NCBI GenBank assembly: GCA_016839915.1
Contig: JAEOTH010000158.1
Span: 1 to 33,796 of the forward strand
Length of the DNA: 33,796 nt
Reading direction: 5' to 3'
Source of the DNA: Promethearchaeota archaeon
GTDB lineage: Archaea > Asgardarchaeota > Lokiarchaeia > Sigyniarchaeales > SOKP01
The position numbers and the translations under genes were made by a program. The notes beneath the pieces were generated by a model. It saw only the letters and a list, made by a program, of their open reading frames with translations. It made no database searches and had not been told where the DNA came from. Of the stretch, positions 17,208 to 33,796 are shown piece by piece (the first letter of the stretch is position 1; every line of letters begins with the position of its first letter).

Positions 17208-17798
17208 ATGACCTCGGATCAAAATATAATTTATTTTGTTACTGGAAATCTCCACAAATTTAATGAGGTGTTAGATCTCTTCAATAAAGAAAAAATTAAT
17301 TTTCTATTAAAACAAATAAATATTGAAACAATTGAAATTCAAGCAGATTCTATTAGAGAAGTGGCTTCATTCAAGTTAAATAGCATTAAAGGGCAAATTA
17401 AAGGTACTTATTTTATAGAAGATGCAGGATTTTTTGTGGATAATCCTCTTAATGGTTTTCCAGGAGTATACTCTTCATATGTCATGAAAACTATTAGGAA
17501 TAAAGGGATACAGAGATTAATAGATGATTTTACTAAAACACAAGCACACTTTACTTCAGTAATAGCCCTTTATTTTCAACCTCTCAATAAGAATTTTTTT
17601 TTTGAAGGGAATGTTTATGGGAAAGTTTCAAAAACAATAAGAGGTTCAGGTGGGTTTGGGTTTGATCCAATTTTTCTTCCTAATATTAAACCGAATAAAA
17701 CATTCGCTGAATTAACAACCACTGAAAAAAATAGAATCTCCCATCGGGGACAAGCTTGGAAAAAATTCTTGACATTTCTTAAGGAAATTAAATATTAA
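17208..17798 (+). CDS. rdgB: XTP/dITP diphosphatase (Ham1/RdgB family)
   Basis: House-cleaning enzyme that hydrolyses ITP, dITP and XTP to monophosphates and pyrophosphate, keeping deaminated purines out of nucleic acids. The 196-residue sequence has the signature order: FVTGNLHKFNEV (N-terminal nucleotide-binding loop), FIEDAGFFVDNPLNGFPG (catalytic acid), YSSYV, GSGGFGFDPIFLP and, near the end, KNRISHRGQAWKKF. Length matches the family. ATG start, no Shine-Dalgarno. It lies divergent to uS15 and ends 16 bases before the convergent ABC permease gene. Confidence 0.96.
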   Translation: MTSDQNIIYFVTGNLHKFNEVLDLFNKEKINFLLKQINIETIEIQADSIREVASFKLNSIKGQIKGTYFIEDAGFFVDNPLNGFPGVYSSYVMKTIRNKGIQRLIDDFTKTQAHFTSVIALYFQPLNKNFFFEGNVYGKVSKTIRGSGGFGFDPIFLPNIKPNKTFAELTTTEKNRISHRGQAWKKFLTFLKEIKY

Positions 17799-17814: not shown

Positions 17815-20793
17815 TTAAAATGTCTGTCTGAAAATATCCATTATAGACTTCTTGTAAAAGTATTTTATTAAAATTATATATGTTCCTAAAAAGGCAAAAG
17901 AAATTGATAATATGAAGACTCTTGATATACTATCCCACGGGACACTAAAGATAACAGGCATCTCCATCATAAGACCCATTGTAGTCTCAAGTAAATAAGC
18001 AGTAAACGTTCCAATAATTGTTCCCATAACGCCCGCGGAAAGTAATGTAATCATACTTTCAATTAGAAACATATTTCTAACATTTCTAGTTTTCATCCCC
18101 ATAGATCTAAGAATCCCGATTTCAAATTTTCTTTCTAATATGACTGCATACATACTGCTAACTAAACCAAAAATACTAATTATAATTGTGAATGTAAGAA
18201 TCAGTTCCATTAAGAATGATTGCCTTTCAGTCATGGACTTAAAGAAATTAATTTTAGATATCGCATCATCAATAATTATGCTCTTATCTTGATACATCGT
18301 GCGAATATCGTCTTTAGTCTCTTTGATGTTTTCTTCAGTCTTATCAACAAGATTTATAAACATTTTGTCTACTATCATATTAGGTTCTCCAGGGTTCTCA
18401 ATTTTCATCAATCGCATATAATTCTCCAATGAGACCATGATACCTCCACCACTAGCTGCCATTTCACTACTTCGAAAGTTGTAAAATCCAGGAATACCCC
18501 CCGAAATTCCTACTACACGAAATAAGGTGACATTTCCAGGAGCCAGTGGTTTATTTTTATAATCTTCTGGGTTGTAAAATGTTATACGAATATATTCCCC
18601 TACGTCTTTAATTCCTATATAATCTGCTATGGATTTAGCAATAATACAAGTATTATTATAAGCAAATAATTCATTAAATGAATAACCGGAAGAACTACCC
18701 TCACTTTGCCAAATTAATAAATTGTTATCAATTAAATCAATAAAATCTTCATTTACGCCTATAAAACCTGCTTCTACAACATCAAAATCCATCACATCTC
18801 CCGCTGTTGTTTTTAATTTATCATCTTCACTAAAAAATTCAAAGATGTTCATCAATTGTTCAGTAGACTCACCACTAAATCCTACTTGTCCTTCACTAAT
18901 TTCAAAGACGGTTGCTAAAGTGGCTTGAAGATCAAAGGTATTATGAAGAGAAATTGCTAATTTATCTACTCCTGGTAAATTTTCTAATTCCTCAACCATT
19001 TCAAGAGTTAAAGCATTTTCTGGACTATTGAAGTCTTGATTTATTAAAACTAAATCTGATCCATATTGAAATCTCATATTTAAATCCATGGTATTAGATT
19101 GCATTTCAGTTACCCCTGTGATAAAGAAAATGAATGAAAAACTAATGGCAAACATTATTACCGTGCTTGTGTTGCGTCTTCTATACCGCTTTAATGAAAT
19201 TCCTATGATATTCCTGTATTTTTTAATAGTTGGTGAGATAATTCCTAAAAATATCTTTTGGATTAATGGAATTATCCCTATTGATGCAAAAACCAATCCA
19301 ATCACAATTGCAGCAAGTAAGCCAATAAAGAGTCCTGAAGTTAGCATAAAGTCGCCAGTTATAAAAATATTTGGCATTAAAACGAAGACAATCATTCCAA
19401 TCATAGCAATCGCAATACCTGCAAGAAAACTTTTAACATTCATAGTTCCTTCTTTTTTTACTTCCCATCCTTCTTCTTTAGTTTGAAAGGGTGTAATCGA
19501 TTTAATGATGTCTAACTTAGCAGTTTTAAGAGCAGGTAATAATGATATTGCTAAAGATACTAGAGTTCCTATTGAAAACACCATAAGGAGTGTATCTGGT
19601 TGAATAACCCATTCTACCTCAGCAAACTCAAATTGAAATTGATAAAGAGGAAATAGAGTTTGTGCAATTGGTATCATAAATATATTTCCAAGTATCATTC
19701 CAATAATTGATCCAATCAATCCTAACATCAAGCCTTCAAATAAAACCATTTTAATACAATATATTTTCTTACTTCCAACTACTCTAACAACACCAAATTC
19801 TCTAACTCTCTCTTCTACAGAAGTAGATAAAATACTGTTTATTAGAATACCAGTTATAAGTGTGGAAAGAATTGTGATAAACCAAAACATTATTGTTACC
19901 ATCATTAACATAAATTCACCACCTTCAAGTTCCTCTAACTTTGGTAAATTCACAGAAAATTCATTAAGATTTAATCTTTCTTGTATGTTAGAACCGATTT
20001 TTCGAAGTCTCCTGGTAGTTAAATCTAAATTACTCGCATCATAAACAGTTTTAGGATTTTTAATAGTTCCAACAATAAAATTTACCAATCCATCTCGTTC
20101 TAAAAAGGCTTGTGCTTGTTGTAAGCTAACCAGAATCAATGTAGTTTCAAATTGCATGAATTTAAACTCCTGGATACAAATTTCTGCTACAGTGAGATTT
20201 AATTCATAATTTTGATATTCCAATTGAATACTATCACCCCTACTTACGTTAAGGACCTGTGCAGTGTTCCATAATATCACGCACTCTCCATTATTAGGTT
20301 CATCATCATAGATTTCACTAGTTTCACTTCCTTCATCATCAACAATTAATAAGTTTCCTATATTACCGTTTGTAGCTTCTTTTTCAAAATCAAGGCCATA
20401 TAATTGTAAGGAGCCACTTGTGTTAATATTTTCAGAAGAAGTTGTTACTAGCATCATAATACGCGGAAATAATTCATCAACACCTTCAATATCCTTTAAT
20501 TCATTATTAATAATAGTTTCATGAAAGAAAGGATCATAAGTTAAATCCGTTTGAATTGTTCGTGTAATCATAATATCACTCTTACCCGTAGTTGCTGTAA
20601 CATATAACAAGTAGTTATAATTTACAGTATCATTGAGCATTCCGATAGTAGTTAATAAAAATAATGAAATTGCAATACCAGATATTCCAAAAATGGCTTT
20701 TGCTTTATCACGTTTAAGATCTAACCAAGAATGTTTGAAAAATTGTAGATTTATGCGTTTTCTTATTCTATACAATAAATTTCTTAGATCCAT
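17815..20793 (-). CDS. FtsX/MacB-type ABC permease B, ten predicted helices
   Basis: About 992 residues. Membrane helix 1 (GISGIAISLFLLTTIGM) is followed by an extracellular MacB-PCD-like domain of about 240 residues, three helices with the cytoplasmic coupling motif SVEERVREFGVVRVVG, two central helices, another helix, a second ectodomain of about 260 residues, and three closing helices with LERKFEIGILRSMGMK, a second coupling motif. This is the 10-helix, two-FtsX-module plan of YbbP/LolCE-like permeases. The second ectodomain holds SSEMAASGGGIMVS, almost the same as in permease A. ATG at 20793 is preferred; an in-frame TTG at 20802 lacks a Shine-Dalgarno. It is the last gene of the operon, 24 bases after the subtilase stop. 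Probably pairs with the ATPase at the right edge. Confidence 0.9.
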   Translation of the reverse strand: MDLRNLLYRIRKRINLQFFKHSWLDLKRDKAKAIFGISGIAISLFLLTTIGMLNDTVNYNYLLYVTATTGKSDIMITRTIQTDLTYDPFFHETIINNELKDIEGVDELFPRIMMLVTTSSENINTSGSLQLYGLDFEKEATNGNIGNLLIVDDEGSETSEIYDDEPNNGECVILWNTAQVLNVSRGDSIQLEYQNYELNLTVAEICIQEFKFMQFETTLILVSLQQAQAFLERDGLVNFIVGTIKNPKTVYDASNLDLTTRRLRKIGSNIQERLNLNEFSVNLPKLEELEGGEFMLMMVTIMFWFITILSTLITGILINSILSTSVEERVREFGVVRVVGSKKIYCIKMVLFEGLMLGLIGSIIGMILGNIFMIPIAQTLFPLYQFQFEFAEVEWVIQPDTLLMVFSIGTLVSLAISLLPALKTAKLDIIKSITPFQTKEEGWEVKKEGTMNVKSFLAGIAIAMIGMIVFVLMPNIFITGDFMLTSGLFIGLLAAIVIGLVFASIGIIPLIQKIFLGIISPTIKKYRNIIGISLKRYRRRNTSTVIMFAISFSFIFFITGVTEMQSNTMDLNMRFQYGSDLVLINQDFNSPENALTLEMVEELENLPGVDKLAISLHNTFDLQATLATVFEISEGQVGFSGESTEQLMNIFEFFSEDDKLKTTAGDVMDFDVVEAGFIGVNEDFIDLIDNNLLIWQSEGSSSGYSFNELFAYNNTCIIAKSIADYIGIKDVGEYIRITFYNPEDYKNKPLAPGNVTLFRVVGISGGIPGFYNFRSSEMAASGGGIMVSLENYMRLMKIENPGEPNMIVDKMFINLVDKTEENIKETKDDIRTMYQDKSIIIDDAISKINFFKSMTERQSFLMELILTFTIIISIFGLVSSMYAVILERKFEIGILRSMGMKTRNVRNMFLIESMITLLSAGVMGTIIGTFTAYLLETTMGLMMEMPVIFSVPWDSISRVFILSISFAFLGTYIILIKYFYKKSIMDIFRQTF

Positions 20794-20817
20794 ATATCTC
20801 AATTTTCAAATATTATT

Positions 20818-23800
20818 TTACTCGTCTAAAATATTAAATTTCATAGTCTTACTTTTAAACTTTCTTGGAAATTTTCCCTCTTTCGCCAAGATTCCTTGAA
20901 TATCTTCTTTACGGCTTCTAATCAATCTCACTCCTTCACAAGTCTTGTTTTTGCAATAATAATTTTCTCCCGGTTCTTCTTTAAAGAACCACTTTTTACA
21001 ATTTGTACAGTTATATGCAGCATATATTTGATCATGTTCACATATAGGGCAAATTATATCAAATTTTTCCGCTAAAAACCAAGATCTACATGACTTACAA
21101 TACAATGTTAAGGGTCTTTTGAGTTCCTCTTCTTGATCTATTAATTCTATTCGCTTTATTACTTGATCTTTATCAATATCTTTAAGTCTTATTTTTTCGG
21201 CACGGATATTTTTAAGGTTTTCGATCCATACTTTTGCTTTTTTTTCAGAAAAAGCAAATAAACTTATCCCAACTATAATTGCAATACCTATTATGATTAT
21301 ATAAGGCCCCCATATTCTCCACCAGCTTACATTATATACACTAACACTAATGAATGATTCTGCTTTATTTCCTTGTCTATCATAGGCTACAACTCTAATT
21401 TCATATATCCCATCTATATATTGAGCAGTATCCCAATTAAACTCTAAGATACTAATATTACTATTAAACACGAGTTTACTTCTATCGACACTTTTATTAT
21501 TAAGAAATACGTAAATTCTCGACTCGTCTAATTCCACGTTATCTGATATATTTGCTTTTATCATAATTATGGAATTGACAGTTATATCGGGCTCAGGATT
21601 TATTATTTGAATTTCTGGATGTATAAAATCTATTGATTTATCGTACCCTACATAAATATTGGATAACAGCCAACCATATCCTAATCCAATAATATTATCA
21701 TTTGAATGTAGAGTGAACTTTATCATTATATCTTCATTAGAATATTGAGAGATATCAAATTTCTTACTTCCAGAAAGATCTTCTTCATCATAGGTATATT
21801 CTCTGAATATTATCCACGATTCACCAGCATCTTTGGATATTGAAACGATACACTTGTCGAGCTGATCTTCAGGCTCAAAAAATTCATTTTGCAAGGAAAT
21901 TTCATAATCAAATTCAAGATAAATTTTATATTCATGTCCTAAATGTAAAGGACGAGTAATTAAATTACTATCCCAATCTGGGCCATAACCTTGCTCAAAA
22001 CCTCCATATCCCTGACCTATTCCACCATATATGTAACTTTGACTAAGACGAGATATTGGATGCCACGTATTATCTGCTCTGAACCAAGCGGTATTTTCTT
22101 TTGGGTTAGGTGTTCCAGTTACATAATAATCAGATAAGTTTGTATTTGAAAAACTATATCCTATGAATTTGTTATCCTTATAAACATTAAATTGTAAAGG
22201 AATAGGAATGATAAACTCAAATAATGAATTGTTTTCATTAAAGAATTTAGTTGTAATTATATTTTTTCCATCAGAAATATGAAACCTAAATGATTGATTA
22301 GAGATTTCTTCCAATAATAAAGATCTAATGAAAGATGTACCTCTGTCTCCAATAGTATTTGAGCTAACATTCCAATCACCATAAATATTATACATTGTAT
22401 AATTGGAATTATCCATTTCTAAATATACAAATTCAGGATAGTTATTATCCAAATCATAATATTCACAAGAAAAAGTATATTTCTGATATTTCGAATCTTT
22501 GGTTGAAGAAATATCATTATTTATATTAAAATATAATAACGGAGAATTTTCATTAGTATAATTTACAATCGCAAAATAATCTAAAATAAATCCTTTATAA
22601 TTTACTGAATCAAAATCTTCATCGAGAGAAGTTTCGAATCTAAACTGAACAAAATTTCCTATGTATTCGGTTAAATTAATTTCTTCCATAAACCAATCCT
22701 GTTCTATATTAGTATATGTTCTTAGATTTATCCAACCAGTCCAATTTAGATTAATTTGTAAATATAGGAAATCTCCTGAATTGAAACTTTCTCTAAATCC
22801 AATTTTTACGAAAGGTTGAGTATTATTTTTATTTATATTAGTTAGATTGAACAAAGGGCTAATTAAAGAACCATTCGGATATGGATCTTCCGTTACCCTA
22901 ATAGGTTGATAAGTGTAGTTCTTGGGGTGATTATGATAAGTACCAAAATACATAGAATTCCACAAATCTTGATATATTCTTGATCTATTGTCATTAATAT
23001 TATTTTGTGTTAAAACTTCCCATCCGGTTCCAGTATATGTCCAATTACCAATCCCTTCATTAAAATTATGGTAATTTGGAAATTGGATGCTATCAGTTGG
23101 AAATTCGATTGTGATATTCAGGTATCCAGTGTTTGGATATCTTGACCCAAAATTACCATCACTAGCAATAAAAAAATAATGGTATATTCCAGGACTTGGA
23201 AATTGAATGTAATCGCTTACAAATAGTGCTCCATCCGTATAAATATTATCTGGGGCAAAATACTGAGTTAATGTAATGTTTTTTGCCATTTCAACAATAG
23301 AAACATAAACTTCTTGTGGGGGAACATTTGAAGAATCATTATCAAAATATTCAATGTAAAACCTATACTGATCGATACTGTAATTTTTCTTAGGAGCCAT
23401 TCCGGAAAATTCTTGAAGGCTAATGATAGTTGTGTTTTTAGAACCCCCAATATAAATAACTTCAGGCACTTTCAGTTCTGGTTTGAAATTATTAATAACC
23501 GTCGATATATTTAATGTAAAATCACTACTTCCTTCAATTGCCTTGACAATTATAAAACAATTAGTTTGATTATCTTTTGGGGTAAAATAGAAACTATCAA
23601 AATTCCCATACCATTTTCTTGAAGATTGTAGTAGGATTGGTTCACCATATTTATTAGATTCATTTGAAAACAAAAATAAATCAAAATCTGCCCCTAGTTC
23701 AGTAATTGATAAGTTAAAAGAGTATTGGGTATCTTTAATTAGCTTGAGTTGACGAGCAAACACATGAGACCCTAGAGGATTTTCTTGAGAACTTATCAAG

Positions 23801-25653
23801 TTTCCATTTGTTGGATAATTAAGATTAACACTTTTAGTTAAAGCTTCAATAGCGGCCTTAATGTTTAATCGTCCATATCCTTCATGAATGTCTTTTAGCC
23901 CATTTGTTAATGGAGCAAGAGATAAAGCTGGTGAGTAATTGCTCTCATCATTTATAGTAAATGGATCTTCTTCTCTTTCAAGATTGGTTTCAGAAGCCGT
24001 CATTAATAAAATTCCTTTAATAAACTTTACCATTTCTGCTAGATTTAAATTATTCCATTGATTCCAGTTACTCCATTTAGCTTCTATCAAAATATTAATT
24101 GCTGCTGAAACGATTGCTGTTGAAATTGAAGTTCCATAAGAAGCAGTAGCTTTATCGATCTCATCACCAGCCGCAATTATCGAACGATGAGAGGATACCT
24201 TACTACCCCCAGGAGCAACAATGTCCGGTTTAATAATATTATCGATTTCCTTTCCTCTACTACTATAGGAACTGACCTGATCTTTATCATTTATAGCACC
24301 AACTACTATAGCATTTTTGTTTTCTGCTAATCTATTCAAAGAGTCTGAAATTTCAATACCATCATTTCCCGCAGCAATCACTACTAATATACCATTTTCA
24401 ATCACTTCATCTATTACTGTATTTACAGTTAAAAAATCTTCTCCTAAGGTACCAACACTTAAACAAACACTGACTATATGATATTTACTTCTATTTTGGA
24501 TAACACTTGCAAGTGCTGATATTAAATCAGATGTGTAGCCCGTTCCAGATTGATTTAGGATTTTGTAGGCAACTATTTTTGTAGCGTTAGCAATACCAGT
24601 GAAATGGTTTCTATTTAAAGCATATACTTCTGGGAAATAAGATATTTCGGAATTGAATGAAAAAATTGGCTGTGCTTGAAGTAATTTATGGTACTTTAAA
24701 TACACATTATAAACGCCTAAATTATCCAAAGTAAGAGGATGGCTCATTATATAATAATTATCTTGAATCTCATTGTATGAATATTTAACTAGGGTTTCAT
24801 TATAATATAATTCGAACCAAAACTTATCTATTCCATTAACTTCCAAGTTCCATGATGAATTAATTATAATATTTGAACCTGCTTTTGAGGCGTTAAAAGA
24901 GAAAATTTTTATAGTATAATTTTGTGGAGCAGAATATTCATCAAAGAATTCTGTATGTGAATAATTCCCCTTAACTTCAATAATTGAGGGGAAAAACGAA
25001 TCATATTCATCTTGACCTGTGCCAGAAATAATAGAAGAAATTAAAGTTCCATGTCCATTATCATCAGAAATTGGCTGAGTATCTACAAAATTTTGCCACC
25101 CAACAATGTTACCACTTAAATCTAATGAACTATATCCATCAGGAAAGAAATTATGATTAGGATTAACTCCTGTATCAAGAACTGCTATAGAGGAGTCTGT
25201 GTTACCTGTCAGACCGTTCAAATACCAAGTAGAATTAACAGCGCCAGATTGAATAGAAGCGTAATTCAATTGTGCATTTAAAATTTCATTATTTTCTACA
25301 ATAGCATCAGGAAACTCATTTTGAAAGGCAATTTTATTTATTTCAAGGGGCATTATTCCAGCAAATCCTGAAATGGAAGTAAATTGATTGTCCCATTCTT
25401 CCAGGATAGTTCCACCATATAACCCAAAGCTAGTTCTAACCGTATTATTGAATGATGGTTTTTTGAATGACACAATAATGTTTTCATTATAGCTATTTGA
25501 AACTCCTAATCCATCTTCCTTTTGATAGTCTTCTGTTATATCATCAGGTAAATTATTTGATTTTGTTGTGTTATGAAAAATGATACTAAATGAAAATAAT
25601 AGAACCAAAAGCAAAAAAATCGAATTTAACTGTTTATTTCTAATTTTGTACAA
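20818..25653 (-). CDS. Membrane-anchored subtilisin-like protease with cytoplasmic zinc ribbons
   Basis: 1611 residues. Signal peptide (about 1-27), I9-like propeptide (about 55-125, ending near GFAGIMPLEINKI), then an S8 catalytic domain with D160 (AVLDTG), H201 (DNGHGT), N430 (IAAGN) and S509 (YGTSIS), so it should be active. About 140 residues of beta-rich sequence are inserted between the His block and FTGIANATKIVAYKIL. After the protease come a pre-peptidase C-terminal-like segment (DFDLFLFS), two MAM/concanavalin-like domains (about 900-1090 and 1190-1350), an Ig-like domain, one membrane helix (about 1446-1468) and a 140-residue cytoplasmic tail. The tail has two Cys4 clusters: C1519, C1522, C1535, C1538 and C1549, C1552, C1567, C1572. 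Many N-x-S/T sites fit a glycosylated surface protein. TTG start; see the ribosome-binding-site entry. Embedded in the ABC operon. Confidence 0.92.
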   Translation of the reverse strand: MYKIRNKQLNSIFLLLVLLFSFSIIFHNTTKSNNLPDDITEDYQKEDGLGVSNSYNENIIVSFKKPSFNNTVRTSFGLYGGTILEEWDNQFTSISGFAGIMPLEINKIAFQNEFPDAIVENNEILNAQLNYASIQSGAVNSTWYLNGLTGNTDSSIAVLDTGVNPNHNFFPDGYSSLDLSGNIVGWQNFVDTQPISDDNGHGTLISSIISGTGQDEYDSFFPSIIEVKGNYSHTEFFDEYSAPQNYTIKIFSFNASKAGSNIIINSSWNLEVNGIDKFWFELYYNETLVKYSYNEIQDNYYIMSHPLTLDNLGVYNVYLKYHKLLQAQPIFSFNSEISYFPEVYALNRNHFTGIANATKIVAYKILNQSGTGYTSDLISALASVIQNRSKYHIVSVCLSVGTLGEDFLTVNTVIDEVIENGILVVIAAGNDGIEISDSLNRLAENKNAIVVGAINDKDQVSSYSSRGKEIDNIIKPDIVAPGGSKVSSHRSIIAAGDEIDKATASYGTSISTAIVSAAINILIEAKWSNWNQWNNLNLAEMVKFIKGILLMTASETNLEREEDPFTINDESNYSPALSLAPLTNGLKDIHEGYGRLNIKAAIEALTKSVNLNYPTNGNLISSQENPLGSHVFARQLKLIKDTQYSFNLSITELGADFDLFLFSNESNKYGEPILLQSSRKWYGNFDSFYFTPKDNQTNCFIIVKAIEGSSDFTLNISTVINNFKPELKVPEVIYIGGSKNTTIISLQEFSGMAPKKNYSIDQYRFYIEYFDNDSSNVPPQEVYVSIVEMAKNITLTQYFAPDNIYTDGALFVSDYIQFPSPGIYHYFFIASDGNFGSRYPNTGYLNITIEFPTDSIQFPNYHNFNEGIGNWTYTGTGWEVLTQNNINDNRSRIYQDLWNSMYFGTYHNHPKNYTYQPIRVTEDPYPNGSLISPLFNLTNINKNNTQPFVKIGFRESFNSGDFLYLQINLNWTGWINLRTYTNIEQDWFMEEINLTEYIGNFVQFRFETSLDEDFDSVNYKGFILDYFAIVNYTNENSPLLYFNINNDISSTKDSKYQKYTFSCEYYDLDNNYPEFVYLEMDNSNYTMYNIYGDWNVSSNTIGDRGTSFIRSLLLEEISNQSFRFHISDGKNIITTKFFNENNSLFEFIIPIPLQFNVYKDNKFIGYSFSNTNLSDYYVTGTPNPKENTAWFRADNTWHPISRLSQSYIYGGIGQGYGGFEQGYGPDWDSNLITRPLHLGHEYKIYLEFDYEISLQNEFFEPEDQLDKCIVSISKDAGESWIIFREYTYDEEDLSGSKKFDISQYSNEDIMIKFTLHSNDNIIGLGYGWLLSNIYVGYDKSIDFIHPEIQIINPEPDITVNSIIMIKANISDNVELDESRIYVFLNNKSVDRSKLVFNSNISILEFNWDTAQYIDGIYEIRVVAYDRQGNKAESFISVSVYNVSWWRIWGPYIIIIGIAIIVGISLFAFSEKKAKVWIENLKNIRAEKIRLKDIDKDQVIKRIELIDQEEELKRPLTLYCKSCRSWFLAEKFDIICPICEHDQIYAAYNCTNCKKWFFKEEPGENYYCKNKTCEGVRLIRSRKEDIQGILAKEGKFPRKFKSKTMKFNILDE

Positions 25654-25657
25654 CCTC
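25654..25657 (-). promoter_or_regulatory. GAGG directly abutting the subtilase TTG start
   Basis: On the minus strand the sequence reads AATAGAGG then TTG, so the only Shine-Dalgarno-like word has no spacer to the TTG. An in-frame TAG lies six bases before the TTG, so the gene cannot begin further upstream. At the usual spacing (nine bases) the fourth codon is ATT, a rare initiation codon. Either start leaves the signal peptide intact. Confidence 0.45.
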
Positions 25658-25666
25658 TATTTCTTT

Positions 25667-28600
25667 CTATTTATTATCAGTCTCAATTTCATCTAGTTCA
25701 AAATTATTATTTTTTTTTTCAGCTTTATTCACTAAAATACTTAATCTATCTCTTAAAGTATGTTCAATATCCAATATTGTGTCTCTTGAGCTGAGTTCAA
25801 AGATATGCATTTCAGATCTCTGAAATACTCTTCTCTTTTTTCTATATTTTTTAATTTGCCAAAAATATATAATCAAAACTAAGATACTTATTAAAAATGG
25901 TATACTAATGTAATAAAACTGTACAAATTTTGGTGTGATAACTTTAATTATAACTGAATTAGAAGTCACTACTTGTTCTTGAAAATAATAATATTCAATA
26001 CTTGCAGGTCTTAAATTTACAAGAGCCTGTTTTTTTGCTTTAATTGTGTAATTGAATACTGCTTTTTCACCGGGCTGCAGAGAATCAAATACTCTAACTA
26101 ATTGCCCTTCTATCAAAGAGAATTCAAATTGAGAATAACTAATCATATCATTAACCCATAAATTATCAATCTGTATTGTACCTAAATTCTCAACTTCTAT
26201 ATAAACGGTAATTTGATCTCCAACCTCTATCTGATTCTTATCCACCGATTTAATTATTGAAAAATTTATTTTCCCTAATATAATAAATGAAGAACCTAAA
26301 ATCTGTAAAGCTCTACTTTCAGAACTTTCAATGAAATTTATTGGAGGATAATAGTATCCCTTCCATCCAATTTTTTTAAGAGTTATTTTAAATGAAACTG
26401 AATCGTTATACCCGATATCTTCAAAATCGAGGTGTGATTTTCCCATTTTTTGTATATCACCATACTGATCATTTGTTGATATATTAAGATCTGGGATGTT
26501 AAAACCTTCTGGACCACTATTCTTAAGACTCAAAGTAAGATTAAATGTTTCACCTACAGTTGGATTTAATTCTGATCCGATATTTTGAATTTCAATAGTT
26601 CTCACAAATGGGAAACTATCTTTGTAGTCTATAGGTGCTGAAATAAATAATTCATTAGTATAGCTGGTAATTTTAGATGAATTACCTCCCTCAATATTGG
26701 TCGGATTAATATAAATTATTGAAATTTTCCCTAATGAAATTGAATTCGGAACATAAAATGAAAAATTAATTGTTAAATTTTCTGATGGAGCTAGTTCTGT
26801 GAAATAATACGATAAATTATTACTTCTAAGTGTAAAATTATTCACTCTATCAATAATTCCAGGAATTAACAAAGATACTGTTAAATTCTTTGCAACATCA
26901 GAGCCAATATTCATAAGATCAATTGTATATATATTTAAATCACCTGGATTAGAACTATAGTTATTTAAATATGAATTGGCAATAATTGAGGCTGCACCAT
27001 AAGTACTTAGAGGAATAGAGTTAGAACGTCTATCAAATTGGACATTACCCGTAATAGATCCATAAACTACTCGGGATCCAGGGTCATTATTAAAATTAAT
27101 GGCTCTATCAGAAAATTCTATATTTAAATCTTTGATTGAAATGTTGAACTTCTCTGAATTTGTGCAAACTACTTTAAAAATTGTAGTATAGTTTTCCTCA
27201 TCCAAGGGATAAAAAAGCCAATCTAAACTTTTATTTTGATTAATAAAAGAGAACGTCCAAGTATTATTTATTCGAGTCTCTAAAAAAGGACTTATATCTC
27301 TAAATATTTCATCTTTAAAGTCAAAAATCTCAAAGTTAGAAGATTGTAAGTTAATAGATGCGTTGATATTTACAATTATTGAGACTTTTTGTAAGGAATT
27401 TTTATTTAGACCAGTATTTGAATTATTTTTAAAAATAAAATCTAATTCAACCCATTGCTCCAGAAATTTTTCAACAGAACCAATTACCCAACTCTCATTA
27501 TCAGCCGATAAGGCCATTTGTGGAACAGTTCCATCAAGTTGAATACCTGATATAATTTCAGGCGTCGTTGGTGTTGATTGAATCGTAAAATTACTAATAT
27601 AAAAAGGAGTAAAGGAATCTAAATTTGCTATAGAATAATTTAATATTTTATACGAAAAGATTTCTCCTGGTTCTAATTTCCAATTGTCATCATTCCTTAT
27701 ACTATAAGTATTTGTAAAAAGATCTTTAATTTCACTTGGAGTAAGACCTAACACTGCTAATGCTGTAACTAATTGAGGATATCCAGTAACTATAATATCA
27801 ACAACATGATCAATATCTTCATTATAAGGATATAAGTTTGTTAAATTAAACAGATCTGGATAAAATGTATCAAAAATACCTATCCCAAATGAATCAAAAT
27901 AAAAAATCCGTGGATCTTCATCAAAATTAAAAAAATCTTCTAAAGAGTCATATTGATTTGGATATTCAATACGGACTACATCCCAGATGGTATCTTGAAA
28001 TTCATCCGCGAGAGGTTGATTGCCTAATGTAAGAAGGAGAAAAAAATCATTAAGTTCAAACGGAATAGGGGTAGGCACACCCCACGCAGTATTATTACCT
28101 ACATTCTCTACTGAGATGTAATATGAAAAATTCCGGAATGCTCCAAATGATGCATTTCCTCCAATTAATTCTTTTTTAAGTAATAAGTTAGGTTCTGTTT
28201 CAGAAATATTATAGATTATTGAAAATTCTTCTATTGGGTTTATGATACCAGTTGGAATATAAGAAAAACCTTGAAATCCAAATTGTTGCATAAAATTGAT
28301 AATATCAGAAGGATCTTGGAGGTTAACTGGGTTAACGTAAGAACGTTTACTTCCCTCTTCACTAACCCAAAACAAATCGAATGAATATTCCTTAAGATCT
28401 TCAGTATTAAATTCAATTCCTGCTAGATAGAAGAGCAATCCTATCTGTTCTAAAAGATAATCACTAAATTTGAAATTCATTGGAGTTGCATCAATAATGT
28501 CTGTACAAAGGATATTTATTTCAATTTCACTCATGAAGGCACCTATTAATGCAATATATATTTTTTCACTTGGAGATAAAGGATCCCCAAAATAACCTAT

Positions 28601-29614
28601 TGCATCCCACAAATTGAATTTATACTGGTTTTGCCCTACCTTTTGTATACCTGTATCTAAACCTTCATATTGAATTGAAATAGTCGTATAATGTGAATCG
28701 TTATTAAGTGTAAATGAACTGAAAATGTCGATAAATTGTTCGAATTCATCTTCTGAGATTGTTGCATTAAAATATTCTCCATAATATTCCAATAGTGCAT
28801 CAAATTGATCGACAAGATTTTGTAGTTCTAAATTTGCTAGGAAGGATAGATCGAGAGAATTTAAATTAAAGTTTACCTGATCCGTTGAAAGATCATAGTC
28901 CCCTTCAAAAAAATCTAATGAATTAAGTAGCATAAAGGTTGAGGAAATATGATAATTTTGTAGATAGTATTGGCTAGTTAAGCGATTAGTATCCAATGCT
29001 TTCCAATAACCATCCATTGGAAAATTCACCATAAGTTCTTGGATAAAAAATTTCCAATTTGGGCAGGCTCCAACGAAAGGGAAGAAATTGGGTTCTGATA
29101 CATTGACCATGATTAGATCAATCTTAAATTTTCTTCTAATTATCTCAAGTGCTCTTTCTGCTCTTATTTTTGCGTCATCAATATTAACATCCTTATCATA
29201 GTAAAGAAATCCTACAAAATTATTGAAACCAACACTATAATGGGAAGAAATCTCACTCTCGGTTAAAATCCTAGGGAAAATCTCTGGATTGATTCCATTT
29301 GAAGCACTTATAATTACATTACATTTATAGAAAGCAGGATCATTTGAATCAAATTGAGAAAGAATATTTGTATCATTGGTAAAGAGCGATTGTTTAACAA
29401 TAGATTTGTTACCAGCGACAAATACATTAATATTCTCAGCATAAAGATCCGAACCCGCAACATCTGAAGTTTTAATAAGGGTTTTATTGGTGTCTATTAA
29501 ATTCTCCTGTTCAATTTCCTTGTACCTAATACTCTTCTCTAAAAATGAATTTAAAGGAGTAAGAAAAATCAAGAAAAGCAAAATGGATATAATTAACAAT
29601 TTATATTTTCTCAA
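25667..29614 (-). CDS. Large membrane-anchored surface protein with CARDB-like repeats
   Basis: 1315 residues, not assigned to a named family. Signal peptide (about 1-25, RKYKLLIISILLFLIFL). An N-terminal region of about 450 residues has no recognised domain. From about 480 onward there are repeated beta-sandwich units of CARDB/DUF11 type; repeat-like phrases include YYISVENVGNNTAWGV, DLMNIGSDVAKNLTVSL, TLSLKNSGPEGFNIPDL and VYIEVENLGTIQIDNLWV. One membrane helix lies near 1230-1252, followed by a 63-residue, basic then acidic cytoplasmic tail. So it is a type I membrane protein, mostly outside the cell, with many N-x-S/T sites. The TTG start at 29614 is fixed by GGGAGGG seven bases upstream. 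It sits between permease A and the subtilase (gaps of 14 and 13 bases) and may be substrate, scaffold or regulator of the protease. Confidence 0.88.
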   Translation of the reverse strand: MRKYKLLIISILLFLIFLTPLNSFLEKSIRYKEIEQENLIDTNKTLIKTSDVAGSDLYAENINVFVAGNKSIVKQSLFTNDTNILSQFDSNDPAFYKCNVIISASNGINPEIFPRILTESEISSHYSVGFNNFVGFLYYDKDVNIDDAKIRAERALEIIRRKFKIDLIMVNVSEPNFFPFVGACPNWKFFIQELMVNFPMDGYWKALDTNRLTSQYYLQNYHISSTFMLLNSLDFFEGDYDLSTDQVNFNLNSLDLSFLANLELQNLVDQFDALLEYYGEYFNATISEDEFEQFIDIFSSFTLNNDSHYTTISIQYEGLDTGIQKVGQNQYKFNLWDAIGYFGDPLSPSEKIYIALIGAFMSEIEINILCTDIIDATPMNFKFSDYLLEQIGLLFYLAGIEFNTEDLKEYSFDLFWVSEEGSKRSYVNPVNLQDPSDIINFMQQFGFQGFSYIPTGIINPIEEFSIIYNISETEPNLLLKKELIGGNASFGAFRNFSYYISVENVGNNTAWGVPTPIPFELNDFFLLLTLGNQPLADEFQDTIWDVVRIEYPNQYDSLEDFFNFDEDPRIFYFDSFGIGIFDTFYPDLFNLTNLYPYNEDIDHVVDIIVTGYPQLVTALAVLGLTPSEIKDLFTNTYSIRNDDNWKLEPGEIFSYKILNYSIANLDSFTPFYISNFTIQSTPTTPEIISGIQLDGTVPQMALSADNESWVIGSVEKFLEQWVELDFIFKNNSNTGLNKNSLQKVSIIVNINASINLQSSNFEIFDFKDEIFRDISPFLETRINNTWTFSFINQNKSLDWLFYPLDEENYTTIFKVVCTNSEKFNISIKDLNIEFSDRAINFNNDPGSRVVYGSITGNVQFDRRSNSIPLSTYGAASIIANSYLNNYSSNPGDLNIYTIDLMNIGSDVAKNLTVSLLIPGIIDRVNNFTLRSNNLSYYFTELAPSENLTINFSFYVPNSISLGKISIIYINPTNIEGGNSSKITSYTNELFISAPIDYKDSFPFVRTIEIQNIGSELNPTVGETFNLTLSLKNSGPEGFNIPDLNISTNDQYGDIQKMGKSHLDFEDIGYNDSVSFKITLKKIGWKGYYYPPINFIESSESRALQILGSSFIILGKINFSIIKSVDKNQIEVGDQITVYIEVENLGTIQIDNLWVNDMISYSQFEFSLIEGQLVRVFDSLQPGEKAVFNYTIKAKKQALVNLRPASIEYYYFQEQVVTSNSVIIKVITPKFVQFYYISIPFLISILVLIIYFWQIKKYRKKRRVFQRSEMHIFELSSRDTILDIEHTLRDRLSILVNKAEKKNNNFELDEIETDNK

Positions 29615-29621
29615 TTTTTTT

Positions 29622-29628
29622 CCCTCCC
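29622..29628 (-). promoter_or_regulatory. Shine-Dalgarno that fixes a TTG start for the CARDB-like protein
   Basis: GGGAGGG on the minus strand begins right after the TAA stop of permease A and ends seven bases before the TTG at 29614. Confidence 0.85.
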
Positions 29629-32616
29629 TTATACAGTTTCCCTGTATATTTCAACTATTTTCTTCTTTCTAACTTTTCTCAACAATATTTTCATTCCTAA
29701 ATAAATCATTATAAATGATAGCCCATAAATTAAGAAAATATTAAACCAAGGCACGTACAATACATTTGGCATACCGATTAGAGTACCCATTAAATTTGTT
29801 GTAACTAACCATGCAGTAACCCATCCAACCACAATACCTATTGTTCCGCTACTTATCATAATGATTAAGGATTCGAGTATAAATAAGCGATTTATCTCTT
29901 TTCCTTTTAATCCTAGCGTCCTAACAATCCCAATCTCTTTCTTTCTTTCAATTATTGTTGAATAAGATGAAGATAATAACCCAAAAATACATATAAACAC
30001 AGTAGTAAGAGCAATTAAAGTAAATAATATATCTAATACAAAAAAAGCAGACTCCTGTTGTGCTAGACTTCTTATTAAATTATTTATATCATAATTATAA
30101 TCATTTTGATAATCTTCATCAATTATTCCCTCAATTTTATAAGTATTTTCTAATCTATCTTCTCGAAGTTTAATAAAAATTCTGTCCAAATAAGGAATAG
30201 GTGGGATATCCATTATTTCAATATACGTCCCTTGAGAGATTAACACTCCTCCTCTTGAGGCTGCCATTTGAGAACCAGAAAATTCTTGGCTAAAACCAGG
30301 CATACTTTTAGCAGTTCCAACAATTAGAAAAGGATATACTTCTAATTCATCTCCTCTATGGATAACAAGACGAACCCTATCTCCAATTATTAAATTCATT
30401 GCAATTGAGATTGCTTCAGAAATAATGCAAGTATATGATTGATTATTATAATATAGGTTGTTAAAAGAATAATCTATAGATCCTGAACTCATTTCTATAA
30501 ATTCTCTCTTTACAGTAAAAGGATATTCTTCATCAATACCTATTAAGGTTATTTCTTGTGTAGATAAACCCGCATAGTCACCAATTTCAGCACTAAACTC
30601 CTTATCTTCTTCTGCATAAATTTGAGTTAATTGATACGGTTTTGCCAAAACAGAAGATACTTTCTCGATTCCGTCAATCAGCATTAATTCTTCTTCGAAT
30701 TCAGTTGTTAAAATTTTATTAGGATTTATAGAAGAATCAGCAGTCTTTAAATTATCATAGTCTAAAGTATTACTGGCATCGTTACCTATTAAGCTAAAAA
30801 AGCCTCCCCCTCCAAATCCTCCTTGAAAAGTTTCTTCAGGTTCTTCCCATCCAGTAGTTTCCATAACTAAATCTGATCCAATGCCTAATTTAATCATAGC
30901 AGAAACCTGTCCCGACAATGTATTAATAAGAGATGAAGTAAAGATAACAAACGAGAAAGATAATGCAAATATAATAATCGTACTTGAATTCCTTCTCTGA
31001 TATCGAAAGACAAAAATTTTGATGACATTATGTAATTTTCTTGCGAGTGGTCTAAATAATTCAATTACTAACCTTATTATAACTGGTATCAATCCTAAAC
31101 CCGCAAGTGTTAATCCAATATTAAATATTAATAAAATAGCTACCAAAGTACCTGCAAATAGAGTCATATCAGCTGAAACCATAATTCTTGGAATTACATA
31201 AAACACAAATCCACCATTAAACGCTAATATTATGCCAACTAAAATTAGTTTATAATTGACTGTAGCTTTTTTTTGTAGATGATATAATGTATCTTCATGA
31301 CGATAGGGGTGAATTGATTCAATTAATTGAAGACGCATCACTTTATAAGCAGGAGCGATACTAACTATCATCCCTACGCCAATACCCATGATATATGATA
31401 TAAAAATTGAGGTCCATGTAAACGAAAATGGTATTGTACCAAAACCTAACAGGCTTTGTGAGACTACTGTATTCGCAAACGGTATTATTACATAATAAGA
31501 AAGAAGATATGCTGTAACTATACCTGAAATAGCCCCAAAATTACACAATAAAAAACCTTGCATTAACACTATAGCTAAATTATATTTTTTATTCGCACCC
31601 AAAGTCCTGAATATTCCAAACTCTCGAATTCGCTCTTCAACAGAAGTTTTCAATATTCCATTAATAAGAACCCCAGAAATCATCATAGCTACAATTGACA
31701 CAAAAACAAAGATAATAACGATAAAAACACTTAAAAATTCAGCACCGCTTAAAGCACGTAATTTAGGTAAATCGATATAGTATTCATTAATTCCTATGGA
31801 AATTTGAATATCAGTTATGATACCCTTCACAATAATTTTTGAAGCTTCAAAATTCCTAATATCATAAAGTTTACTGCTATCTTTTAAAGTTAATATTAAA
31901 TCACTACATTTTCCTTCAAATTCAGTAACACCAAAATACTGATAAAGAGTATTAATATCTACTATAATTAGATGCCTATTACGGTAGTTTGCTGGCCATT
32001 TTAAATTGAAATCAAAAATTTTATCTATTGTTAGATTTCTTGTCCTATAAATCGTTACATCTCCATGTCTTAATCGCATTCTAATTTCAATAGTATCATT
32101 TTCAGAATATTTAATAATATCATTAAATCCATAATAAATCGCACAATGATCTAAAGGTAATTCTTCTAGATCAAGTGGTGCATTATAATTTGGATCTACA
32201 AAAGCCCCAAAATTAATATTATTCTCGAGAGAAAAGTTAATTGCTGATATAGTAGCCCATTCATCCTCATTTGTTAAAGAATTCTTTACTGTCCCCTGTA
32301 TGTCCATTCTTGGAATAATATGTTCTACAGCATGGGAAGCATTCCCAATTTTATTCATTATTGGATTATAATCAAAATACGATGATCTGTTACTAGGTTC
32401 TCCATTATAATGCCGTACGGAAATTAGCGCATCTTGATTTCCAGAATCTATAGATAAAAAATCTACATATCCCACCGCGATAGAATCTGATAAAAATAAG
32501 ACAACCGTAAGAAGTCCTATAGAAATCAACATTCCTATTATTGCTAATAATGTTCTGACCTTTTGTTTTCTTAAATCTTGAAATGCATATTTAAAGACTA
32601 GTTTAATGTGTGTCAT
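29629..32616 (-). CDS. FtsX/MacB-type ABC permease A, ten predicted helices
   Basis: 995 residues with the same plan as permease B: helix 1 (LLAIIGMLISIGLLTVVLFL), a first ectodomain of about 250 residues, three helices with coupling motif SVEERIREFGIFRTLGANKK, a central helical pair, a second ectodomain and three closing helices with IERKKEIGIVRTLGLKGKE. The second ectodomain contains a glycine-rich loop (FQGGFGGGGFFS) not seen in B and the shared motif GSQMAASRGGVLIS. Start ATG at 32616, with no strong Shine-Dalgarno; the gene begins 48 bases after the ATPase stop. FtsX-type permeases often do not move small solutes but pull on extracellular partners or extract lipoproteins; which applies is not shown by sequence alone. 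Confidence 0.92.
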   Translation of the reverse strand: MTHIKLVFKYAFQDLRKQKVRTLLAIIGMLISIGLLTVVLFLSDSIAVGYVDFLSIDSGNQDALISVRHYNGEPSNRSSYFDYNPIMNKIGNASHAVEHIIPRMDIQGTVKNSLTNEDEWATISAINFSLENNINFGAFVDPNYNAPLDLEELPLDHCAIYYGFNDIIKYSENDTIEIRMRLRHGDVTIYRTRNLTIDKIFDFNLKWPANYRNRHLIIVDINTLYQYFGVTEFEGKCSDLILTLKDSSKLYDIRNFEASKIIVKGIITDIQISIGINEYYIDLPKLRALSGAEFLSVFIVIIFVFVSIVAMMISGVLINGILKTSVEERIREFGIFRTLGANKKYNLAIVLMQGFLLCNFGAISGIVTAYLLSYYVIIPFANTVVSQSLLGFGTIPFSFTWTSIFISYIMGIGVGMIVSIAPAYKVMRLQLIESIHPYRHEDTLYHLQKKATVNYKLILVGIILAFNGGFVFYVIPRIMVSADMTLFAGTLVAILLIFNIGLTLAGLGLIPVIIRLVIELFRPLARKLHNVIKIFVFRYQRRNSSTIIIFALSFSFVIFTSSLINTLSGQVSAMIKLGIGSDLVMETTGWEEPEETFQGGFGGGGFFSLIGNDASNTLDYDNLKTADSSINPNKILTTEFEEELMLIDGIEKVSSVLAKPYQLTQIYAEEDKEFSAEIGDYAGLSTQEITLIGIDEEYPFTVKREFIEMSSGSIDYSFNNLYYNNQSYTCIISEAISIAMNLIIGDRVRLVIHRGDELEVYPFLIVGTAKSMPGFSQEFSGSQMAASRGGVLISQGTYIEIMDIPPIPYLDRIFIKLREDRLENTYKIEGIIDEDYQNDYNYDINNLIRSLAQQESAFFVLDILFTLIALTTVFICIFGLLSSSYSTIIERKKEIGIVRTLGLKGKEINRLFILESLIIMISSGTIGIVVGWVTAWLVTTNLMGTLIGMPNVLYVPWFNIFLIYGLSFIMIYLGMKILLRKVRKKKIVEIYRETV

Positions 32617-32664
32617 GTGCTCTAGAACAATTTATATTTTAATTTTCCCACTCATAAAGAATTT

Positions 32665-33796
32665 TTATTTTAAAATCAATACTTCGCCTTCAATTCTGCC
32701 AAAAAAGTTGTTATCATCAACTAATTCCTGGAGTATATCATTAAAGTGTTCCGGTAAATTCATGATTATAGATTTTGGAATACTGCTTTTAATATCACTT
32801 ATTGGAATTTCAATTTTTCCTTGGTTTGCATAGAGGTATTGAAAGATTTTGTTTTTACACTTTTCTTTGTTAATTTCTGTTTCTTGTCTTCTTTTTAGTT
32901 GCATGATCTCAGTCTCTTTCAACCCACCAATCTTCCCTTCGTGAGTAAGTTTTCCATCTCTCATATGAAATACTCTAGTAGCAAATTCTGAAACTGCGGC
33001 ATCATGACTTACCGCAATAAAGGTTGCACCGCGTTTATTCAAATCTCTAAGAAGGTTTAAGACCATGACACCTGTTTTAGAATCTAAATCTCCCGTAGGT
33101 TCATCAAGAACACAAATAGCTGGATCATTCGAGAATGCCCTTGCTATCGCAACTCTCTGTTGCTCGCCACCACTCAATTCAGAAGGGGTATGATGGGCTC
33201 TTTCATCTAAACCTACTAATCTCAAGAGATCCATAGCTTTTTTTCTTTTACCTCGACGACTTAATTTGCCTGAAAAATGTAGTGGAACCATAACATTTTC
33301 CATTGCAGTCATCTGAGGAAGAAGATTATAGAATTGAAACACAAACCCAATTCTCTCACGTCTTATTTCTGCCAATGAGTTGTCACTTAACATGCTTATA
33401 TTACGTCCTTCTAAGAAGATTTTTCCTCTTGTGGGGGTATCTAATCCACCGATCAAGTTTAAAAGTGTTGTTTTTCCAGAACCAGAAGGGCCCATAATAT
33501 CAACAAAATCTCCGGTGTCTATTGTTAAGTCAACACCCCGTAATGCGGCAACGGCTGTGGTTCCAAGTAAATAAGTCTTTGAAAGGTTTTCTACCACGAT
33601 TAAATGGTCATAATCTTTACCCGAAATCTTGCCATCTTTATCCTCTTGCTTCCATTTACGTCTTTCAATACGAGATTGGGAAAGGATCTCTTCTTTCATT
33701 TGTTTAACACCTTCTTGTTTCTTCTGTTTTTTCCACTTTTTAAAATTCTTAGAAAGTTCACCTTTCCAAATTGCTAATTTTCCTGTCTCTTCTTCA
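32665..33796 (-). CDS. ABC transporter ATPase (LolD/MacB/FtsE type) with C-terminal extension, open at the window edge
   Basis: Numbering from the ATG at 33699: Walker A GPSGSGKTT (70-78), Q-loop FQFYNLLPQ (121-129), signature LSGGEQQR (175-182), Walker B CVLDEPTGDLD (196-206) and switch H232. Sequence type is that of ATPases serving FtsX/MacB permeases. The frame stays open for 32 more codons upstream to the right edge (with KLAIWKGELSKNFKKWKKQK, strongly basic and Trp-bearing), so the real start probably lies outside the window and the N-terminus is extended. Beyond the normal end at about residue 255 is an extra 90 residues: a charged linker, then a compact segment of helices and two final strands (about 277-344, ending FFGRIEGEVLILK) that looks like a winged helix. 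It is followed by permease A after 48 bases and powers the two permeases. Confidence 0.93.
   Translation of the reverse strand, partial: EEETGKLAIWKGELSKNFKKWKKQKKQEGVKQMKEEILSQSRIERRKWKQEDKDGKISGKDYDHLIVVENLSKTYLLGTTAVAALRGVDLTIDTGDFVDIMGPSGSGKTTLLNLIGGLDTPTRGKIFLEGRNISMLSDNSLAEIRRERIGFVFQFYNLLPQMTAMENVMVPLHFSGKLSRRGKRKKAMDLLRLVGLDERAHHTPSELSGGEQQRVAIARAFSNDPAICVLDEPTGDLDSKTGVMVLNLLRDLNKRGATFIAVSHDAAVSEFATRVFHMRDGKLTHEGKIGGLKETEIMQLKRRQETEINKEKCKNKIFQYLYANQGKIEIPISDIKSSIPKSIIMNLPEHFNDILQELVDDNNFFGRIEGEVLILK

Follow-up and report, generated by a model that had tools for sequence, protein, structure and literature searches.

A conserved Lokiarchaeal operon for an ABC unit with two FtsX-type permeases, a large surface protein and a subtilase whose active site is mostly, but not always, intact

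The last 16 kb of the window, by which we mean the whole stretch of 33,796 nucleotides analysed here (contig JAEOTH010000158.1 of the Promethearchaeota archaeon assembly GCA_016839915.1), hold a block of five genes, the final one of which runs open into the contig end in the list of open reading frames. All five are encoded on the minus strand, in the order ATPase, permease A, surface protein, subtilase and permease B, and are separated from the ATPase to permease B by 48, 14, 13 and 15 bases. The question raised by this locus is what an ATP-binding cassette (ABC) unit with two permeases does beside a protease; an earlier note on this DNA had supposed that the ABC complex activates the protease, positions it or supplies it with substrate, with the surface protein as scaffold or target. 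Based on the fact that the ATPase, permeases and surface protein are found in nearly every intact copy, whereas the subtilase is active, inactive or absent, we tentatively propose, at somewhat less than an even chance, that the operon encodes a type VII (MacB-superfamily) mechanotransmission machine at the Lokiarchaeal cell surface, with the former four proteins as its core and the subtilase as an accessory. The system is conserved and unusual, but it lies within a known superfamily. The features of the locus are as follows.

32665..33795, minus strand: ATPase of the LolD/MacB/FtsE type, its 5' end cut by the contig end (ABC_tran and NCBIfam LolD)
29629..32616, minus strand: permease A, 995 residues, ten predicted helices, two FtsX halves (Pfam, hydropathy, AlphaFold2 and fold match)
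25667..29614, minus strand: surface protein, 1315 residues (Pfam, hydropathy and AlphaFold2)
25979..26260, minus strand: TRAP-beta/DUF11-like membrane-proximal domain of the surface protein, residues 1119-1212 (Pfam, profile and fold)
25862..25918, minus strand: C-terminal membrane helix of the surface protein, residues 1233-1251 (hydropathy)
20818..25653, minus strand: subtilase, 1611 residues (Pfam Peptidase_S8, alignment and hydropathy)
25273..25506, minus strand: putative propeptide region of the subtilase, residues 50-127 (absent in three inactive relatives)
25174..25176, minus strand: codon of the catalytic Asp160 of the subtilase (alignment)
25051..25053, minus strand: codon of the catalytic His201 of the subtilase (alignment)
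24127..24129, minus strand: codon of the catalytic Ser509 of the subtilase (alignment)
21247..21303, minus strand: membrane helix of the subtilase, residues 1451-1469 (hydropathy)
20938..21099, minus strand: subtilase cysteines 1519, 1522, 1535, 1538, 1549, 1552, 1567 and 1572, predicted zinc ribbons (alignment)
17815..20802, minus strand: permease B, 995 residues, ten predicted helices, two FtsX halves (Pfam and hydropathy)
17208..17798, plus strand: flanking gene of the Ham1/RdgB family, outside the system, a marker of the insertion site (neighbourhood comparison)

These coordinates confirm the layout described in the earlier note, namely five consecutive minus-strand genes with gaps of 13-48 bases, and its view of the genes as one unit is upheld by their short gaps and by the recurrence of the same order in related genomes, the check that the note itself had named. 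When 58 relatives were searched with permease A, it proved to be widespread, typically with a second match, to permease B, about 12 kb away, and gene maps of the retrieved stretches displayed the same five-gene order in the genus of the window, in its family and in two further families. The alignment of the surface protein, used in an independent scan of named genomes, recovered 47 loci from Lokiarchaeota/Lokiarchaeia, Prometheoarchaeum, Harpocratesius and Sigynarchaeum records, along with one, L135, labelled Bathyarchaeota. All five genes occur in order in 32 of these; 11 are cut by a contig end, one is broken (L105) and three (L120, L134 and L135) lack only the subtilase. That 32 of the named loci share the arrangement shows that it is not a matter of chance. 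The median gaps in the 32 complete loci are 48, 16, 0.5 and 30 bases (the largest being 549 and 254), figures that lean small as they use the start codon nearest the preceding stop. The broken locus appears to belong to G004, a genome in a single contig (loci L033, L105 and L034), in which a shortened surface protein lies with the ATPase and permease A at one place, while permease B with the C-terminal part of the subtilase lies 1.5 Mb from these remaining operon genes, by rearrangement or through an assembly fault.

Among the 227 genomes covered from the phylum, the surface protein is strongly matched in the order of the window alone; elsewhere only short stretches are matched, mostly in the membrane-proximal domain. 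Within the order (79 genomes), a permease of the A/B type is present in 64 genomes, the surface protein in 58 and a subtilase of the operon type in 52. The surface protein accompanies the permease in 58 of the 64 permease-bearing genomes, the other six being partial or contig-edge matches, and the operon-type subtilase is found in 51 of the 58 genomes with the surface protein. Among the seven that lack it, two (G026 and G151) have only pieces of the surface protein, located at a contig end or close to one, and G023, G039, G041, G043 and G045 have the surface protein beside permease B. Fifteen of the 79 genomes are devoid of an A/B-type permease, four of these showing only weak, partial surface-protein matches.

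The genomic surroundings offer a further view of the block as a unit. The genes for RNase III and RdgB enclose the operon in 18 of the 47 named loci. When the RdgB protein was probed in 12 genomes devoid of the block it was found in nine, and in six of the eight such genomes with retrieved RdgB surroundings the RdgB and RNase III genes lie less than 2 kb apart with no operon gene between them, being directly adjacent in two. Given these occupied and closed-up sites, we conclude that in the family of the window the block is either wholly present or wholly missing at a single site; in the other families the flanking genes differ.

The subtilase bears on the question raised above. It comprises a signal peptide, a propeptide, a Peptidase_S8 domain (129.1 bits against a Pfam cut-off of 21.8) with an insert after the catalytic His, C-terminal beta domains, a membrane helix and a predicted cytosolic double zinc ribbon; hydropathy detects one N-terminal and one C-terminal hydrophobic segment. 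The window protein carries Asp160, His201, Asn430 and Ser509, and these four residues are kept in 33 of the 36 full-length subtilases from the named loci, that of the window included. Hence, the description of a membrane-anchored subtilisin with a complete active site holds for the window and for most of its relatives. From its position, the region spanning residues 50-127 is likely to be an inhibitory propeptide; in L098 and L106 the propeptides appear shortened, as the mechanical choice of start codon makes these open reading frames start late.

The remaining three subtilases, those of L122, L123 and L126, have Gly in place of Asp, Leu or Gln in place of His and Asp in place of the oxyanion Asn, keeping only the Ser. 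They form one clade with a support of 1.0 in the permease tree, and they retain the hydrophobic N-terminus, with a propeptide region of 21-26 residues as against about 78. A sequencing error is an unlikely cause of the lost triad, as it is seen in three metagenome-derived genomes of one clade, with three substitutions in each and loss of the propeptide. The L122 and L123 subtilases share 66% protein identity over 1461 codons, with the proportion of differences at nonsynonymous sites (pN) at 0.209 against 0.756 at synonymous sites (pS); as this identity is retained while silent sites are saturated, the inactive version is a maintained protein. The eight cysteines behind the membrane helix are kept in all 36 subtilases, the three inactive ones included. 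Based on topology and the CxxC spacing, we predict that this tail is cytosolic and binds zinc; no zinc-binding Pfam family reaches its cut-off in the tail of the window protein.

Elsewhere the subtilase is absent and the surface protein adjoins permease B, as in L120, L134 and L135, and also in L053, L054, L055 and L057. As L120 sits among subtilase-bearing loci in the permease tree, loss is likelier there than original absence; for the family of L134 and L135, on which the permease tree was rooted by choice, the tree gives no direction between the two. In this family a protein with a VWA domain and RING-like cysteine motifs adjoins permease B (L134:16998-18275, L055:1007-2302 and L057:4842-6191).

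We therefore reject proteolysis as an obligatory function: the active site is lost in a clade of three, and the subtilase is missing in two lineages, where the other four genes stay together. Thus, proteolysis is probably not the indispensable task of the machine, and the supposition that the ABC complex exists for the sake of the protease is not sustained.

What the core of the system might be is suggested by the ATPase and permeases. The ATPase contains an ABC_tran domain (Pfam, E 5.1e-35), and its best NCBIfam model is LolD, at 237.3 bits, below the model cut-off of 307.75. From its first ATG it has 344 residues, as against about 392 in most homologs from the family of the window. Past the nucleotide-binding domain it bears a conserved C-terminal extension of about 75-90 residues (window 32665-32886), in which no Pfam family scores above cut-off. 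The permeases are 31% identical to each other, and Pfam detects FtsX twice in each (113 and 103.2 bits in the two permeases, cut-off 25.5). Both have ten predicted helices, counted from hydropathy alone with overlapping windows merged, and a large outer domain behind each of helices 1 and 7; in permease A these lie between helices 1-2 (approximately residues 42-294) and helices 7-8 (approximately 565-862). The two coupling-region motifs are near invariant in the alignments of both permease families, and each FtsX half has invariant residues in both. Structure modelling and fold comparison, which cover permease A, gave an AlphaFold2 model with a mean predicted local distance difference test score (pLDDT) of 76.3 and a predicted template modelling score (pTM) of 0.60, whose best match in the PDB is YbbP (9ge6, E 6.3e-20; 9ge7, E 4.0e-18), with LolE, MacB and BceB ranking behind it. 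The claim of one ATPase with two ten-helix permeases, belonging to an FtsX/MacB/Lol-type (type VII) ABC system, is accordingly supported by domain content, by hydropathy and, for permease A, by the fold of solved members. An unrelated locus in G005 and G007 encodes a second FtsX-type unit, made of a permease of 1231-1380 residues and two separate ATPases of 254-280 residues (L144:1476-7239 and L145:4859-10170), and large permeases of this kind are matched in many relatives.

In YbbAP, two ATPases sit on one internally symmetric permease chain, whose symmetry is likened to that of the MacB/LolCDE dimer (PMC12646458). By analogy, and from the model of permease A, permeases A and B are each more likely to be a complete YbbP-like unit than half of a shared transporter. 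As each would hold both transporter halves in one chain, the single ATPase gene probably serves two permeases; given the YbbAP stoichiometry and the invariant residues in both FtsX halves of both permease families, two complete units sharing one ATPase are to be expected. A pairing of the two permeases in the manner of LolC and LolE was rejected, as each has the two-half, ten-helix layout, along with the match to the YbbP fold.

This likeness also underlies the alternative of a strict hydrolase complex resembling YbbAP-TesA, in which the ABC unit would lift a membrane-bound substrate and pass it to the subtilase, in line with the supply of substrate supposed in the earlier note. The YbbP-like fold of permease A, the hydrolase borne by YbbAP on its outer side (PMC12646458) and the intact active site in 33 of 36 subtilases are consistent with it; however, TesA and the S8 peptidases are different hydrolase families, and the subtilase is retained though inactive in three genomes and absent in two lineages. 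On this balance we regard it as improbable.

The surface protein has a signal peptide, an alpha/beta N-terminal part, several beta-sandwich domains, a C-terminal helix and a short, conserved, predicted cytosolic tail; hydropathy shows an N-terminal and a C-terminal segment, plus two weak internal ones. An AlphaFold2 model of residues 40-1239 (mean pLDDT 86.5) displays the alpha/beta N-terminal part followed by a row of beta-sandwiches. Among the best 50 of its 932 Foldseek matches most are multi-domain beta-sandwich proteins, with a query template modelling (TM) score of up to 0.12, and these 50 include no assignable match for the N-terminal part. BatD is above its Pfam cut-off in the surface protein (29.4 against 24.1 bits). 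The membrane-proximal domain exceeds the cut-offs for TRAP_beta (39.4 against 22.4 bits) and DUF11 (36.4 against 24.6); it is matched by TRAP-beta chains in profile searches (E 9e-5), and the TRAP-beta chain 8b5l_v fits the model with a TM score of 0.64 on the target. The label CARDB-like, given to the protein in the earlier note, had to be dropped as a family name (19.7 bits against a cut-off of 22.7); TRAP-beta/DUF11-like, both being above cut-off, fits better. Small one-domain proteins of 187 and 213 residues from other Asgard genomes (L146:892-1455 and L150:933-1574) resemble this domain, and are probably the Asgard TRAP-beta homologs reported earlier in PMC10307638.

A surface protein of this kind could also be what the permeases handle. 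In a Lol/MacB-like scheme, they would release, insert or order envelope proteins, with the TRAP-beta-like protein as guide or cargo and the subtilase as a sheddase. LolD is the top-scoring model for the ATPase, and the closest structures include LolCDE and MacB. However, LolC/E-type permeases have four helices and work as a pair, as against the ten helices of each permease here, and we regard this scheme, too, as improbable. Peptide sensing or resistance of the BceAB type, likewise a ten-helix type VII unit and among the fold matches, is much less probable: BceB is without the first large outer domain (PMC12646458), which both permeases here possess. Moreover, the Pfam scan detected no histidine kinase gene within the five-gene unit. 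Nutrient use, with the subtilase digesting external protein and the ABC part importing the peptides, is scarcely credible, as FtsX-type permeases do not, to our knowledge, act as importers, the Pfam scan of the five-gene unit shows no binding protein and the subtilase is retained after catalytic loss. The uptake of protein carbon by some Lokiarchaeota (PMC9123169) is what speaks for it.

Returning to the mechanotransmission machine, we envisage that the LolD-like ATPase would drive two different YbbP-like permeases, and that ATP binding and hydrolysis would move the two outer domains of each. The constant partner, the large anchored surface protein of TRAP-beta-like kind, might be what this work acts on or through. 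Where active, the subtilase would probably mature or shed a surface protein presented by the machine; it may also have a non-catalytic role tied to its conserved inner tail, retained where catalysis was lost, and could thus be a structural link to the cell interior besides a maturing enzyme. We infer complex formation, the direction of the force and the substrate, and likewise the function of the machine.

Several observations weigh against this proposal. The model of permease A is of only medium quality, and YbbP is not among the 13 PDB matches of its sequence profile, other FtsX proteins being found. The NCBIfam YbbP model scores 19.1 bits for permease A and 17.3 bits for permease B against a cut-off of 999; indeed, no NCBIfam permease model reaches its cut-off for either. 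The pairwise distances are closely correlated among the five proteins (0.93-0.99); with no outside gene as a control, this indicates shared descent only. Finally, the retention of catalysis in 33 of 36 subtilases implies that proteolysis matters in most lineages, and the absence of the whole block from 15 of 79 genomes implies that the machine is not essential.

With still more reserve, we raise the possibility, on the whole unlikely, that the subtilase serves as a scaffold or relay across the membrane and is not chiefly an enzyme, with the subtilisin fold outside and the double zinc ribbon inside, linking the dual-permease machine and the surface protein to the cell interior. Its catalysis would then be optional, having been discarded together with the propeptide by one clade, and the whole would be a dual-permease type of ABC machine, of which we found full-length copies in a single Asgard order only.

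The operon represents a conserved envelope machine in the Lokiarchaea, close relatives of eukaryotes with a poorly understood cell surface, and adds to the type VII ABC systems an archaeal version that has a large partner at the surface and two permeases, each probably a complete unit. It also amounts to a natural experiment, as operons that are otherwise alike differ in whether their protease subunit is active, inactive or missing. A search of the open-access PMC library, judged by titles, the openings of abstracts and passages of one paper, returned no description of such an operon.

The closest known system is YbbAP-TesA of E. coli, with which it shares a ten-helix permease whose outer domains lie between helices 1 and 2 and between helices 7 and 8, an ATPase of the MacB family and, in most members of the Lokiarchaeal system, a hydrolase on the outer side. 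It differs in having two permeases for one ATPase, an extra surface protein of 1315 residues and, in place of TesA, a dispensable S8 subtilase with its own membrane helix and cysteine-rich tail; no TesA-type partner was found among the five genes, whose hydrolase is a Peptidase_S8 in Pfam. The Lokiarchaeal permease sequences are also far below the cut-off of the YbbP model. LolCDE, MacAB-TolC and FtsEX-EnvC belong to the same superfamily, with LolD as the top ATPase model and LolCDE and MacB among the fold matches, but their permeases have four helices and dimerise, and their partners differ. TRAP-beta of the translocon resembles the membrane-proximal domain in Pfam, profile and fold; however, its chains have about 183 residues, whereas here the domain is one part of a protein of 1315 residues in an ABC operon. 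The mycosin MycP of the ESX systems belongs to a machine without homology to this one, and the NCBIfam model T7SS_mycosin scores 60.9 bits for the subtilase against a cut-off of 278.75. The likeness is instead one of working: mycosin is a tethered subtilase that its machine requires as a protein while its protease activity can be dispensable (PMC5082899).

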